Shown: positions 15,855 to 43,950 of the stretch, piece by piece
Layout of the letters: each line of letters begins with the position of its first letter
How positions within the stretch are numbered: the stretch's first letter is position 1
DNA from: Pandoraea norimbergensis
Lineage (GTDB): Bacteria > Pseudomonadota > Gammaproteobacteria > Burkholderiales > Burkholderiaceae
NCBI RefSeq assembly: GCF_001465545.3
Contig: NZ_CP013480.3
Location: forward strand, 5,580,001-5,644,000
Reading direction: 5' to 3'
Length of the DNA: 64,000 bases
Made by a program: the position numbers and the translations under genes
The notes under the pieces: generated by a model
What the model saw: the letters and a program-made list of their open reading frames with translations, nothing else
Databases searched by the model: none
What the model was told of the DNA's origin: nothing

Positions 15855-17660
15855 TCAGGCACTCAGCCACTTCTCGCGGCGTTGCGCGGCGGCCCGATCG
15901 CGCGTCGCGGTGATGCGGTATTGCGTCACTTCCGGGGCATCGAGCGTGAGCGCGGTTTCGCGCAATTCGTCGCGGCGGAACGCGTGCACGCGCACCTGAT
16001 CGCCTGCGCGATAGCGTTCGAGCAACTTGTCGAGATTACCCGTCGTCACGCGCAGACCGTCGATGGCGACGAGCGTATCGCCTGCCGACAGACCCGCCGC
16101 TTGCGCAGCGCCACCGTCGAGCACTTGCGCGAGCGCGAGGTCGTCACCGCGCTTCGCTGTCTTCGCTCCGAGTGACGGACGGCCATGTTCCGGCGTCACT
16201 GGCGCCAGCGTCAGGCCGACACGCTCCAGCAACGATGCGAGCGGCAAGTCGCGCGTGCCGTTGATGGCCGTCGCAAAGAACTCCGACAGGTCGATACCCG
16301 AGACTTCTTCAAACAACGGCTGAACCGCATCTTCATCGATGCCGACCGGTGCCCCGCGATAGAAATCGCGCCCGTAACGCTGCCACAGCGCGCGCATGAT
16401 GTCGTCAAGCGACTTCTGGCCACGCGTCTGCGTGCGAATGGTCAGATCAAGTGCCAGCGCGATCAGCGAACCCTTCGTGTAGTAGCTCACGATGGCGTTC
16501 GGCGCGTTCTCGTCCTGACGGTAGTACTTGGTCCACGCGTCGAACGAACTCTCGGCAACGGTCTGCTTGAGGCGGCCGCTGCCGCGCAGCACGTTGGCCA
16601 CCGTCTCCGCGACCAGATCGTAATAAGCGGGCGCGTCGATCACGCCGCTACGCACGAGCATCAGATCGTCGTAATACGACGTAAAGCCTTCGAACAACCA
16701 CAGCAGGCGTGTGTAGTTTTCCTGATCGAGTGTGTAAGGCGCGAAAGCCGCAGGCTTGATGCGTTTGACGTTCCACGTGTGGAAGTACTCGTGGCTCACC
16801 AGACCGAGGAAGCCGCGATACGCGTCGCTCATCTTCGCCTGCCCCTGCACCGGCAGGTCATTACGACCGGCCAGCAGCGCCGTGGACGCGCGATGCTCCA
16901 GCCCGCCGTAACCGTCCCCCACCGTCATCAGCAGGAAGACATAACGCGACATGGGCACACGCGAACGCGCGCTGGCACCCGGTTCGAACAACCGGATCTG
17001 CGATTCGCAGATCTTCTTCATGTCGCGCAGCAAACGGTCGAGATCGAGCTTCGGCACGGGGCCGGTGATGGCCACCTCATGCGTCACACCGCACGCCTTG
17101 AAGGTGCCGTGCACGAAGGTGCCCAGTTCCACCGGCGAATCGATCAGTTCGTCGTAATCGGCGGCGATATAGCGGCCGAAGTCGAGCGCCGCCGTCCCCT
17201 GCGCAGGTTCCAGCGCCGTCGCCACACGCCATGCCTTGTAGGCAGCACCGCGCGGGCGCAGGATGTCGACCTCGCACGGCGAGTTCTCCTGCCCGTGCAC
17301 GCGCAGAAACACGCTGGTGCCGTTGAAGAAGCCATGCGTGTCGTCCAGATGCGCGGCGCGCACCGAAAGATCCCATGCATAGACCTCGTACGTCACGATC
17401 AGCGTGCCCTTGCAGGGCGCCGCCTGCCACGTGTGCTTGTCGAGCTTGTCGAGCGCCACCTTGCGGCCACGGCACGTCGCGCCGATGGTCACGATGTTGC
17501 GCGCGAACTCGCGCACCATGTAGCTGCCCGGAATCCACGCCGGCAACGTGAAACGCTGGCCTTCAGGCGCAGGGCTGGAGACCGTGACGCTCACTTCGAA
17601 CAAGTGAGCGGCGGGCGACTTCGGGACGATGGCGTACCGAATGGAAGGCGTAGCTTTCAT
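15855..17660 (-). CDS. M61-family metallopeptidase with PDZ domain
   Basis: The 601-aa protein matches glycyl-aminopeptidase-like M61 peptidases. The zinc motif HEYFHTWNVKRI is near residue 289, preceded by a GYGGLEHR block that is also conserved in the family. The N-terminal third is the M61 beta domain. A PDZ domain covers roughly residues 495-580 (AQAAGLSAGDTLVAIDGLRV). There is no clear signal peptide, so it may be cytosolic. It lies 41 bases downstream of dsbC on the same strand and may be cotranscribed. Confidence 0.92.
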   Translation of the reverse strand: MKATPSIRYAIVPKSPAAHLFEVSVTVSSPAPEGQRFTLPAWIPGSYMVREFARNIVTIGATCRGRKVALDKLDKHTWQAAPCKGTLIVTYEVYAWDLSVRAAHLDDTHGFFNGTSVFLRVHGQENSPCEVDILRPRGAAYKAWRVATALEPAQGTAALDFGRYIAADYDELIDSPVELGTFVHGTFKACGVTHEVAITGPVPKLDLDRLLRDMKKICESQIRLFEPGASARSRVPMSRYVFLLMTVGDGYGGLEHRASTALLAGRNDLPVQGQAKMSDAYRGFLGLVSHEYFHTWNVKRIKPAAFAPYTLDQENYTRLLWLFEGFTSYYDDLMLVRSGVIDAPAYYDLVAETVANVLRGSGRLKQTVAESSFDAWTKYYRQDENAPNAIVSYYTKGSLIALALDLTIRTQTRGQKSLDDIMRALWQRYGRDFYRGAPVGIDEDAVQPLFEEVSGIDLSEFFATAINGTRDLPLASLLERVGLTLAPVTPEHGRPSLGAKTAKRGDDLALAQVLDGGAAQAAGLSAGDTLVAIDGLRVTTGNLDKLLERYRAGDQVRVHAFRRDELRETALTLDAPEVTQYRITATRDRAAAQRREKWLSA

Positions 17661-40886: not shown

Positions 40887-41085
40887 ATTTTTCACGGCGA
40901 ACAATTCTCGGCCAATGAGAAATTCAAATGAAACAGGCGTGATTCATATCGCGCCCGTCTCATCATCAACCGATGAATAAGCATTAATTGATCGCGTGTA
41001 ATTTCGATGGGTTGAATTTCGCGTTTTGTCGCGTTTTGGCTCCCCAATTAAATCCCGAACGACGTTCTCTATTTCGTCAGTCGAA

Positions 41086-41199
41086 TCAATAACGATAGCA
41101 GCACGGGTGTCCGTAGTAACCCCCGTAATACGGCCGGGCCGGAACAACAACGCATCCGGCAAGCGTGACGGCAAGCAGTGCGGCAACAAGCAACTTCAT
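41086..41199 (-). CDS. Small lipoprotein, 37 aa
   Basis: A short gene: ATG at 41199 with AGGAG eight bases upstream. The product is MKLLVAALLAVTLAGC followed by VVVPARPYYGGYYGHPCCYRY. The LAGC lipobox predicts lipidation at Cys16, leaving a 22-residue Tyr/Gly/Pro-rich mature chain. Similar tiny Tyr-rich lipoproteins are frequent in Burkholderiaceae; function unknown. Confidence 0.68.
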   Translation of the reverse strand: MKLLVAALLAVTLAGCVVVPARPYYGGYYGHPCCYRY

Positions 41200-41337
41200 G
41201 ATCTGACTCCTGATGATAAGGAACGAGGGGAACGCGAGTCCGTTCGATTCCTTTATATCTTTGGCCCGATACGAAGCCCATCACGCGTCTGTAAGCCGTG
41301 TAAGCGAAGGTTGCCAAACGGGGGAAGTGTCGCACTT

Positions 41338-41371
41338 TGTTACGTTACATGCGGCGTCCAACGCCGTAACA
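41338..41371. promoter_or_regulatory. Inverted repeat upstream of the sigma-54 promoter, possible activator site
   Basis: TGTTACG (41338-41344) and CGTAACA (41365-41371) are perfect inverted arms; inside lies CGGCG (41352-41356) / CGCCG (41362-41366). The site is about 115 bases before the inferred start at about 41469, the usual distance for a bacterial enhancer-binding protein. Confidence 0.45.
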
Positions 41372-41442
41372 TCACCGCCCCCGGCCAGCGACGCTTTCAT
41401 GACAACCCAATAACGACGCGGGTTTGCGCTTGTCGCAGCCGC

Positions 41443-41458
41443 TGGCACGGCGATTGCA
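41443..41458 (+). promoter_or_regulatory. Canonical sigma-54 (RpoN) promoter
   Basis: TGGCACG-N4-TTGCA is an exact match to the sigma-54 -24/-12 consensus, with the required ten bases between GG and GC. Transcription would start near 41469, toward the right. Confidence 0.75.
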
Positions 41459-41468
41459 TAGTAATGTG

Positions 41469-41550
41469 TGCCGCCCTCTCAATTGCCCCGAAGAGAGCGG
41501 CTTTGGATGTCAGCCCCTTCCCGCGTCTGACGCGGGAGGGGGTCTTTTTT
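41469..41550 (+). ncRNA. Putative sigma-54-dependent small RNA, about 82 nt
   Basis: From the inferred start near 41469 to the end of a T-tract at 41550. It contains a first hairpin (CCG 41471-41473 and CTCTC 41476-41480 with GAGAG 41493-41497 and CGG 41498-41500) and the terminator hairpin. No convincing reading frame with a ribosome-binding site fits inside, so a regulatory RNA is more likely than a short mRNA. Not matched to any family I know. Confidence 0.5.
41514..41550 (+). terminator. Strong intrinsic terminator
   Basis: A 12-bp stem (41514-41525 with 41531-41542, one G-T pair), a TCTGA loop and TCTTTTTT. It works only left to right. No upstream protein gene on this strand needs it, which supports the small-RNA call. 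Confidence 0.88.
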
Positions 41551-41886
41551 CCGACAGGCTGCTCAGCCACTTCAATTGCACCGTCTGCGTGCAAAACCCC
41601 TCGTATTGCCATTTCATCTGCGCGTTTGAAATGTATTGACGCTATAACAGCGTCGACTTTGCGCCCGTTTCATTTATCTTTAAATCTTTATTCGGCGCGG
41701 CTTACCGGGTGATTTTGCCATTCAAGGCAAAAACAACATGCGGGTAGCCACCAATCTCAAGTTGACTTTCCAACTGTCGTAATCGCGTCTATAGAGGAGT
41801 GCGCGTCAACTCCTGGGCGACGCAAAAAATCCTTTTCGTGACGGCCGCACGACACGCGCCGGGGCAAGCGTATCAGGGAGAAGGTC
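41551..41886. other. Upstream region of the PAS-chemoreceptor gene, with a receptor-like 14-codon frame
   Basis: There is no full gene. At 41738-41782 a 14-codon frame, MRVATNLKLTFQLS, then TAA, resembles the start of a membrane chemoreceptor. The region around 41665-41695 is AT-rich and may carry the promoter. Confidence 0.4.
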
Positions 41887-43950
41887 ATGGAAATCGCCAC
41901 GCCTGAATTCCAGATGGAACAACAGGAACTACAGGCCATCAGCGCCGCACTTAACCGCGTTCAGGCGGTTATCGAGTTCGATCTGCAAGGCCGCGTCATG
42001 CACGCGAACGATAATTTCCTTCAGACACTCGGTTATCGGCTCGACGAAATTCAGGGCCAGCACCACCGTATGTTCTGCGAGCCGGACTACGCCGCGTCAG
42101 AGGCGTACCGCGACTTCTGGGCGAAGCTTGGGCGCGGGGAATTCGACTCGGGCGAATACAAGCGTGTCGCCAAGGGCGGCCGCGAGGTCTGGATCCGCGC
42201 CTCGTACAACCCGGTGTTCGACGCCAACGGCGTGCCCTACAAGGTCATCAAGTTCGCGACCGACGTCACCGCCGACCGGGCGCGCCAAGCGGAATTTGAG
42301 AGCAAGGTGCGCGCCATCGGCGTATCGCAGGCTGTGATCGAATTCCAGCTCGATGGCACCGTGCTCACCGCTAACGACAACTTTCTGCAAGCCCTCGGCT
42401 ACTCGCTCGACGAGATCAAGGGCCAGCATCACCGCATGTTCTGCGAGCCGGAGTACGCCAACTCGGCGGCTTACCGCGACTTCTGGGCCCGCCTGAATCG
42501 CGGCGAGTTTGACACCGGCGAGTACAAGCGCATCGGCAAAGGCGGCCGCGAGATCTGGATTCACGCCTCCTACAACCCCGTATTCGATGCCAGCGGGCGC
42601 CCGTACAAGGTCGTCAAGTTCGCCTCGGACGTGACCGCCCAGCGTCGTCAGACGGCCGAGTTCGAAGGCAAGGTGCGCGCGATGGATCTGGCGCAGGCCG
42701 TGATCGAGTTCAACCTCGACGGCACGGTGATCACCGCCAACGACAACTTTCTCAAGACACTCGGCTACGCGTTCGACGACATCAAGGGCAAGCATCACCG
42801 CATGTTCTGCGAGCCGGAATACGCCGCGTCCGACACGTATCGCGAGTTCTGGGCGAAGCTCAATCGCGGCGAATTCGACTCCGGCCGCTACAAGCGCATC
42901 GGCCGTGGCGGGCGCGAAGTCTGGATTCAGGCGACGTACAACCCGATTCTCGACATGAACGGCCGCCCCTACAAGGTGGTGAAGTTCGCAACCGACATTA
43001 CGCAGCAAGTCGAACTCGAAGCCAGCGTGAAGCGCCGCGCCGAAGACGATCAACGCAAGGTGGCCGCGTTGCTGAACACAGTCAATCGTGCGGCTGCCGG
43101 CGACCTGACCGGCGACATCGCCGTGAACGGCACCGACCCGATCGATCAACTGGCCGAAGGCATTCGCCACATGATGGACGACCTGCGCGGCGTGATCGGC
43201 AAGGTCGTGAACTCGGCCGGCGAATTCTCGGGCGCATCGCGCGACATCGCAGACCGCGCCAATACGGTCGCGACCGGTGCTCAGGCGCTCGGTGCCACCG
43301 TCGAAGAGATGAATGCCTCGATCGAAGAACTGACCGCATCGATCAACTCGATTGCCGACAACACCAAGGGCGCCGATCAGCTTGCCAAGGCCACACAGCA
43401 GGAAGCGGAGACCGGCGCGCGCGCCATCGCCCGCTCGGTCGAGGCGATGGAGTTGATCAACAAGTCCTCGGAAGACATCGGCGAGATCGTCAAGGTGATC
43501 GGCGAGATTGCCGGGCAGACCAATCTGCTGGCCTTCAACGCGGCCATCGAGGCTGCGCGTGCTGGCGAGCACGGTCTGGGCTTCTCGGTCGTGGCCGACG
43601 AAGTGCGCAAGCTGGCCGAGCGCTCGTCGCAGGCGACCAAGGAAATCTCGAAACTCATCAACGAGTCGACCAAGCGCGTGGCACAGGGCAGCGAGGTGTC
43701 GAAGCAGGCGGGCGACGCGTTCGAGAAGATTGTCGGCGGCGTGTCGCGCACCACGCAGGCGATCTCCGAGATTTCTTGTGCCGCAGAAGAGCAACTGGTC
43801 GCCGCCCGCGAAGTGAGCCTTGCGATTCAGCACGTGGCCGAAGAGACCGAGAAGTCGGCGGGTGCGTGCGAGACCATCGCGCAGGCCACCGCCGGGCTCA
43901 CCAGTGAGGCCGAGGAACTCGACCGCACGGTCTCCCGTTTCAAAGTCTGA
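41887..43950 (+). CDS. Soluble methyl-accepting chemotaxis protein with three PAS domains
   Basis: A 687-aa protein without TMs. Three tandem PAS-PAC units of exactly 122 residues each (about 25-390), all with HHRMFCEP and GREVWI or GREIWI, precede a signalling domain with the canonical hairpin tip [20 protein letters not shown] and adjacent [17 protein letters not shown]. Soluble PAS receptors such as BdlA or Aer-like proteins sense redox or intracellular ligands through heme or flavin. There is no CheR-tethering pentapeptide at the C-terminus (ends RFKV). It heads a cluster with cheR, cheD and a CheW protein. GGGAGAAGG precedes ATG 41887. Confidence 0.93.
41968..43065. repeat. Three tandem 366-bp coding repeats (PAS units)
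   Basis: Matching positions start at 41968, 42334 and 42700, an exact 366-base period, with no insertions or deletions between the units over most of their length. This indicates in-gene duplication. Confidence 0.85.

Follow-up and report, generated by a model that had tools for sequence, protein, structure and literature searches.

Small RNAs transcribed with the alternative sigma factor sigma-54 are best known from the gamma-proteobacteria, where CrcZ, GlmY, and Qrr are the familiar examples. GlmY/GlmZ and Qrr are sigma-54-dependent regulatory RNAs, two of which (Qrr and GlmZ) act by pairing, and the CrcZ family is marked by repeated A-rich Hfq/Crc motifs. Two further small RNAs of pseudomonads, NrsZ and NalA, are driven by NtrC together with sigma-54, and the cuckoo RNAs and CcsR form a group in which a CCUCCUCCC motif is exposed in loops. 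The sites of the CbrB activator at CrcZ, CrcY, and CrcX consist of upstream TGTTAC/GTAACA half-sites, one forward and two reverse, according to a study that also describes CbrAB as exclusive to the Pseudomonadaceae (PMC6296734). NcS25 of Burkholderia, found in Pandoraea as well, is an 84-nt RNA that pairs with the Shine-Dalgarno region; it adjoins a porin gene and reportedly carries no sigma-54-like motif (PMC10117139).

The locus described here lies in a 64,000-nt stretch of the Pandoraea norimbergensis chromosome, hereafter the window. Like CrcZ, CrcY, and CrcX of the pseudomonads, it appears to encode an RpoN-dependent small RNA, preceded by half-sites of the CbrB kind, although the half-sites in Pandoraea abut and a third follows 16-18 nt further. 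The RNA differs from the CrcZ type in its length of ∼82 nt, its one C-rich loop, and its lack of repeated A-rich motifs. A first-pass annotation, made from the window's letters, had set it apart from CrcZ on the last of these grounds, and the distinction holds: inspection of 26 sequences found no A-rich repeats, and Rfam returned no match. The absence of an Rfam match, the different organisms, and the different neighbours likewise separate it from GlmY/GlmZ and Qrr. An NtrC-box-like repeat at the locus recalls NrsZ and NalA, a likeness drawn by description only, but here the repeat lies behind the gene. The CCUCCUCCC motif of the cuckoo RNAs and CcsR is shared by a majority of the 26 sequences, but within the terminator stem, where it changes with its partner arm. 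From NcS25 the RNA is distinguished, again by description only, by its flanking lipoprotein-like and chemoreceptor genes. NcS25 in Pandoraea is itself reported, in the same paper (PMC10117139), near a gene for a sigma-54-dependent regulator, and both RNAs might belong to one circuit.

The locus is very likely a real sigma-54 RNA gene, whose product is probably a small, signal-switched regulator of other messages. Judged from sequence comparison, it is likely to be a genus-specific, RpoN-dependent regulatory RNA that acts in antisense by loop pairing; the whole is placed a step lower than the gene itself because action by pairing is rated somewhat below the RNA-gene claim. A conserved sigma-54 small RNA in a beta-proteobacterial genus, with promoter, loop, and terminator evolving as a unit, would offer a testable entry to RpoN regulation in Pandoraea.

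Promoter, predicted RNA and terminator

The sigma-54 promoter (41443-41458, + strand) reads TGGCACG-GCGA-TTGCA, so the exact -24 TGGCACG and -12 TTGCA elements separated by four bases, as first claimed for this stretch, are indeed present. TGGCACGNNNNTTGCW has a single exact match in the window with both strands scanned; allowing up to two mismatches brings the number to 13, where 15.2 would be expected, and the promoter is therefore distinct from background only as an exact match. The related pattern TGGCAY-N5-TTGCW is found at just four sites in the 1.2 Mb of the P. norimbergensis genome that were scanned. With the -12 GC at 41456-41457, the +1 is predicted at ∼41469, twelve bases 3' of the -12 C, which places the start of the RNA 10 bases past the promoter.

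The predicted RNA (41469-41550, + strand, ∼82 nt, with both ends predicted) folds at -42.5 kcal/mol compared with -28.6 kcal/mol for shuffled sequences (z -4.3), and none of 200 shuffles equalled it. Its 5' hairpin (41470-41501, + strand) carries the C-rich loop TCAATTGCCCCGAA (41479-41492, + strand), the proposed seed, whose core TGCCCCGAA is invariant in the alignment of 26, and a short linker joins this hairpin to a strong intrinsic terminator (41513-41550, + strand). The terminator scan recovered a 14-pair stem (41513-41543) and a T run, with the U run ending at 41550, in close agreement with the terminator originally placed at 41514-41550. Terminator-like sites number two in 2.3 kb, against 2.9 in shuffled sequence, so the site count by itself is no proof. 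A promoter followed 10 bases later by a two-hairpin RNA agrees with the order given by the first-pass annotation (a start about 12 bases downstream, then a hairpin and a terminator), and the promoter-RNA-terminator observation as a whole is confirmed as real. The covariance-model search that the annotation had proposed gave no Rfam match at the locus, either across the whole window at gathering scores or in 41300-41900 at E values up to 5.

Conservation and decay within Pandoraea

Of 61 genomes searched by BLAST, 24 gave a match, the source genome included, and all 24 belong to one genus. A covariance model built from these 24 members added the divergent copies of G002 and G015, so that 26 of 32 genomes examined in Pandoraea, one of the genera that the annotation had singled out for such a search, carry the RNA unit. 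The limits of the BLAST matches in relatives fall near the promoter and the terminator; this and the mere four pattern sites in 1.2 Mb are more than chance would produce. TGGCAY-N5-TTGC is kept in all 26 carriers (the 24 BLAST members, P. norimbergensis among them, and the two divergent copies), the loop core UGCCCCGAA is identical in all 26 aligned sequences, the promoter stands at a fixed distance from that core in 25 of them and one base further off in the other, and the predicted RNA measures 80-84 nt across 24 species. A pattern search returned 16 stretches, in Pandoraea only.

The two stems remain paired as their sequences change. Standard pairs fill 98.9% of pair cells among 22 distinct sequences (98.2% in the 5' hairpin and 99.6% in the terminator stem), and the proportion drops to 49-69% when the structure is slid by one to three columns. 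Changes on both sides affect 10 cells, compared with 3.3 in shuffles and a count reached by none of 500, and two of the terminator stem pairs show such changes; pairs with double changes number three, matched by 152 of 500 shuffles, and the shared ancestry of the sequences inflates the other measures. The sigma-54-driven small RNA proposed at the outset is supported by this combination of 26 carriers in 32 genomes, a promoter in every carrier, and stems that stay paired through change. Three features that mark a sigma-54-dependent small RNA are found here, namely the -24/-12 spacing (26/26), RpoN in the host, and a structured non-coding RNA with a terminator.

The interval had also been described as free of protein genes; in the window an open reading frame of 228 codons with a TTG start (41026-41712) crosses it. 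The frame is unconserved in relatives: its in-frame stops fall at varying places across the 26 loci, and start codons within the RNA open frames whose length is not conserved. A comparison of reading-frame with RNA-structure conservation yielded no conserved frame and stems that stay paired. That the stretch is a protein gene, or a chance pair of promoter and terminator, is very improbable, since the 228-codon frame that speaks for a protein is set against these varying stops and frame lengths, sequence changes that track pairing, and a promoter kept in 26 of 26.

No convincing copy was found outside Pandoraea in 398 genomes of the family (the 32 included) or 399 of the order, scans whose stricter filters could miss distant relatives, and the extension to Burkholderia suggested by the annotation was not borne out. 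Three model matches in the family (L053, L054, and L056) and one in the order (L308) were discarded, as each is without the loop core and without a promoter at the match. Within the genus the model also gave a weak match in G020 (L055), which on inspection did not prove to be the RNA, another in G013, and weak second matches in other genomes. A search of the open-access literature, with most subscription journals outside its coverage, found no description of the RNA.

Six genomes of the genus are without the RNA (G003, G013, G020, G024, G026, and G029). G013 retains the lipoprotein-like gene upstream and the first candidate enhancer block, but the DNA corresponding to 41.4-48.1 kb of the window is missing, so that the RNA and the chemoreceptor cluster are absent together. 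In G020 the neighbours are kept and the RNA is a relic, with no promoter, an altered loop core, and a terminator that has lost its 3' arm; such joint decay of promoter, loop, and terminator is expected for one functional unit. The remaining four gave no match to 41193-41420 at E 0.1. RpoN is encoded in 31 of the 32 genomes, including every carrier, the exception being G003. This 1.2-Mb genome, placed in the genus, is without RpoN, the RNA, and the neighbouring DNA, and may be misplaced or reduced.

Candidate enhancers and activators

Upstream of the promoter, TGTTAC-GTTACA and a further GTAACA occupy -131 to -98. The first of these lies in a conserved block, GTCGCACTTTGTTACGTTACA (41329-41349), identified as a candidate enhancer in the alignment of 26 and matched once in the genome at up to three mismatches. 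The further GTAACA belongs to the third half-site, CCGTAACAT (41364-41372), also a candidate enhancer, and is exact in 24 of 26 carriers. The first block is present in all 26 carriers and also in G013 and G020, which have no working RNA, and its role may therefore lie with the lipoprotein gene; both of these RNA-less genomes have an altered third half-site. CbrB was considered as the activator on account of the similar half-sites and set aside because CbrAB is called exclusive to the Pseudomonadaceae (PMC6296734). No IHF consensus was found in 41301-41470.

Downstream of the terminator, at +109, lies the inverted repeat TGCAC-N7-GTGCA (41577-41593), a candidate enhancer that resembles the NtrC-box consensus. 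It is conserved within one mismatch in 21 of 26 carriers (16 exact), the other five lying beyond one mismatch, and its position is +108/+109 in four carriers and +138 to +141 in 17. Exact boxes number four in 1.2 Mb, and only the one at 41577-41593 has a strict sigma-54 site no more than 400 bp away; another box, with a single mismatch, lies upstream of an apparent glnA, a gene named by eye. At up to one mismatch such sites are not enriched in the window (two against 3.7 expected). The distance from the repeat to the chemoreceptor start is nearly constant, and it may for that reason belong to the chemoreceptor. A nitrogen-status switch on taxis and transport, in which NtrC bound at 41577-41593 would drive the RNA and the RNA would pair with the leaders of the triple-PAS chemoreceptor and other genes, is a doubtful proposal; if true, it would be an uncommon case of a natural enhancer placed behind the small RNA gene that it serves.

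The P. norimbergensis genome holds 12 matches to sigma-54 activators, nine of them strong, of which one NtrC and two PrpR exceed the NCBIfam cut-offs. Another activator (L142) carries a VpsR domain and is presumably like BerB. The part of the BerB paper available gave no BerB site for comparison with the locus.

Neighbouring genes and proposed mode of action

In the reading that we prefer, an enhancer-binding protein would activate sigma-54 (RpoN) RNA polymerase, which would start at ∼41469 and stop at the intrinsic terminator, releasing an RNA of ∼82 nt. The 5' hairpin would present the invariant C-rich loop UCAAUUGCCCCGAA, and the 3' end would consist of the terminator stem and a U tail. Antisense action is the most likely mode, probably with Hfq (a one-motif scan of about a fifth of the genome gave no match to Hfq), the loop pairing with mRNA leaders that contain GGGGCA and so altering their translation or stability.

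The gene upstream in all 26 carriers encodes a 37-aa lipoprotein-like protein (41086-41199, - strand), named by eye and without a Pfam match. Downstream, in 25 of 26, lies a chemoreceptor gene with three PAS domains and an MCP signal domain (41887-43950, + strand), 3' of which are CheR, CheD, and a protein with three CheW stretches. The position upstream of a chemoreceptor cluster given in the first-pass annotation is thus borne out in 25 of 26 carriers, but the link to chemotaxis is loose. G006 has an intact RNA and no match in its genome to the cluster's CheW-like protein, and G020, G024, and G026 have the CheW protein (53% identity in G024 and G026) without a working RNA. The chemoreceptor reading of G006 (L024) diverges soon past its start.

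The same comparison bears on the idea that the RNA serves the chemoreceptor operon as a terminated leader or an attenuator, with sigma-54 transcripts sometimes reading through. The shared strand, the distance of 336 bp to the gene, and synteny in 25 of 26 would suit such an arrangement, but the gap holds further conserved promoter-like DNA close to the gene, and RNA and cluster part company in G006 and G020; we regard it as quite improbable. Only a little less improbable is action by protein binding instead of pairing, as for CrcZ with Hfq or RsmY-type RNAs with RsmA. A protein might recognize the invariant loop, and none of the pairing targets is proven, but each RNA presents one short hairpin loop, lacks both repeated A-rich motifs and a GGA in the 5' loop, and has no Rfam match.

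A more specific alternative is that the RNA chiefly regulates the adjacent chemoreceptor, its loop pairing with CGGGGCAA (41860-41867, + strand), 20-27 nt 5' of the start codon, to alter translation and thereby connect a sigma-54 signal to chemotaxis. In 22 of 26 species the loop can pair perfectly with the site over 8 bp, the gene adjoins the RNA in 25 of 26, and among the 46 gene starts in the window the leader ranks second for loop pairing. In a two-species duplex scan of the loop against 224 ortholog pairs (0.4 Mb per species), to which the chemoreceptor was added by hand as the 225th, it again came second on the summed energy, a value reached by one of 150 shuffled loops. It would place just fifth against the 770 ortholog pairs of a second scan (1.2 Mb per species). 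Reciprocal best hits missed the chemoreceptor in the first scan, and it was again missing from the second; the gene starts came from a simple script that misses some genes, and about a fifth of the genome was covered. The match was, moreover, spotted by eye before it was tested, and the entire leader is conserved, which does not single out the pairing site. In G006 the RNA persists although the cluster is missing and the site broken, and in G020 the site persists beside a decayed RNA. Regulation chiefly of the chemoreceptor is possible but unlikely.

For the favoured antisense role on other messages, none of the leaders scanned passed every species test. Both duplex scans placed first the leader of a gene for an ABC transporter permease, a protein with BPD_transp_1 above cut-off and a glycine-betaine type solely below NCBIfam cut-offs, and the score of this leader was matched by three of 150 shuffled loops. 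This target is not claimed, since its site is kept in the RNA-less G013 and G020 and is complete in just 14 of 26 carriers. Searching for the 9-mer TTCGGGGCA at 0-30 nt before an ATG gave 27 rows in P. norimbergensis (the RNA locus among them) and 36 in G021; comparison of the former loci with 30 of the 36 G021 rows found none shared by BLAST at 1e-10, and these candidates were dropped.

Several other elements deserve mention. The permease leader (L153, ∼16686-16810, minus strand; G000:C1:5404055) is highly alike in 28 of 32 genomes of the genus, with 93-100% identity in 27 of 30 matches, above an ordinary leader, and may itself be regulated. Between the terminator and the chemoreceptor lie two inverted repeats, CATTTCA...TTGAAATG (41610-41633) and GACGCT...AGCGTC (41638-41654), both strongly conserved in most of the 26, followed by a well-conserved TCAAGTT and GTCGTAA (41757-41782), which we take to resemble a sigma-28 flagellar promoter. 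On the other side, a direct repeat of TGTAAGCCGTGTAAGC and a conserved TATA-type element (41290-41305 and 41250-41259) precede the lipoprotein-like gene, presumably as parts of an OmpR-type regulated promoter. Elsewhere in the genome, at G000:C1:5902642 (L234, ∼15272), a strict sigma-54 site lies directly 5' of a short open reading frame that resembles a soluble chemoreceptor.
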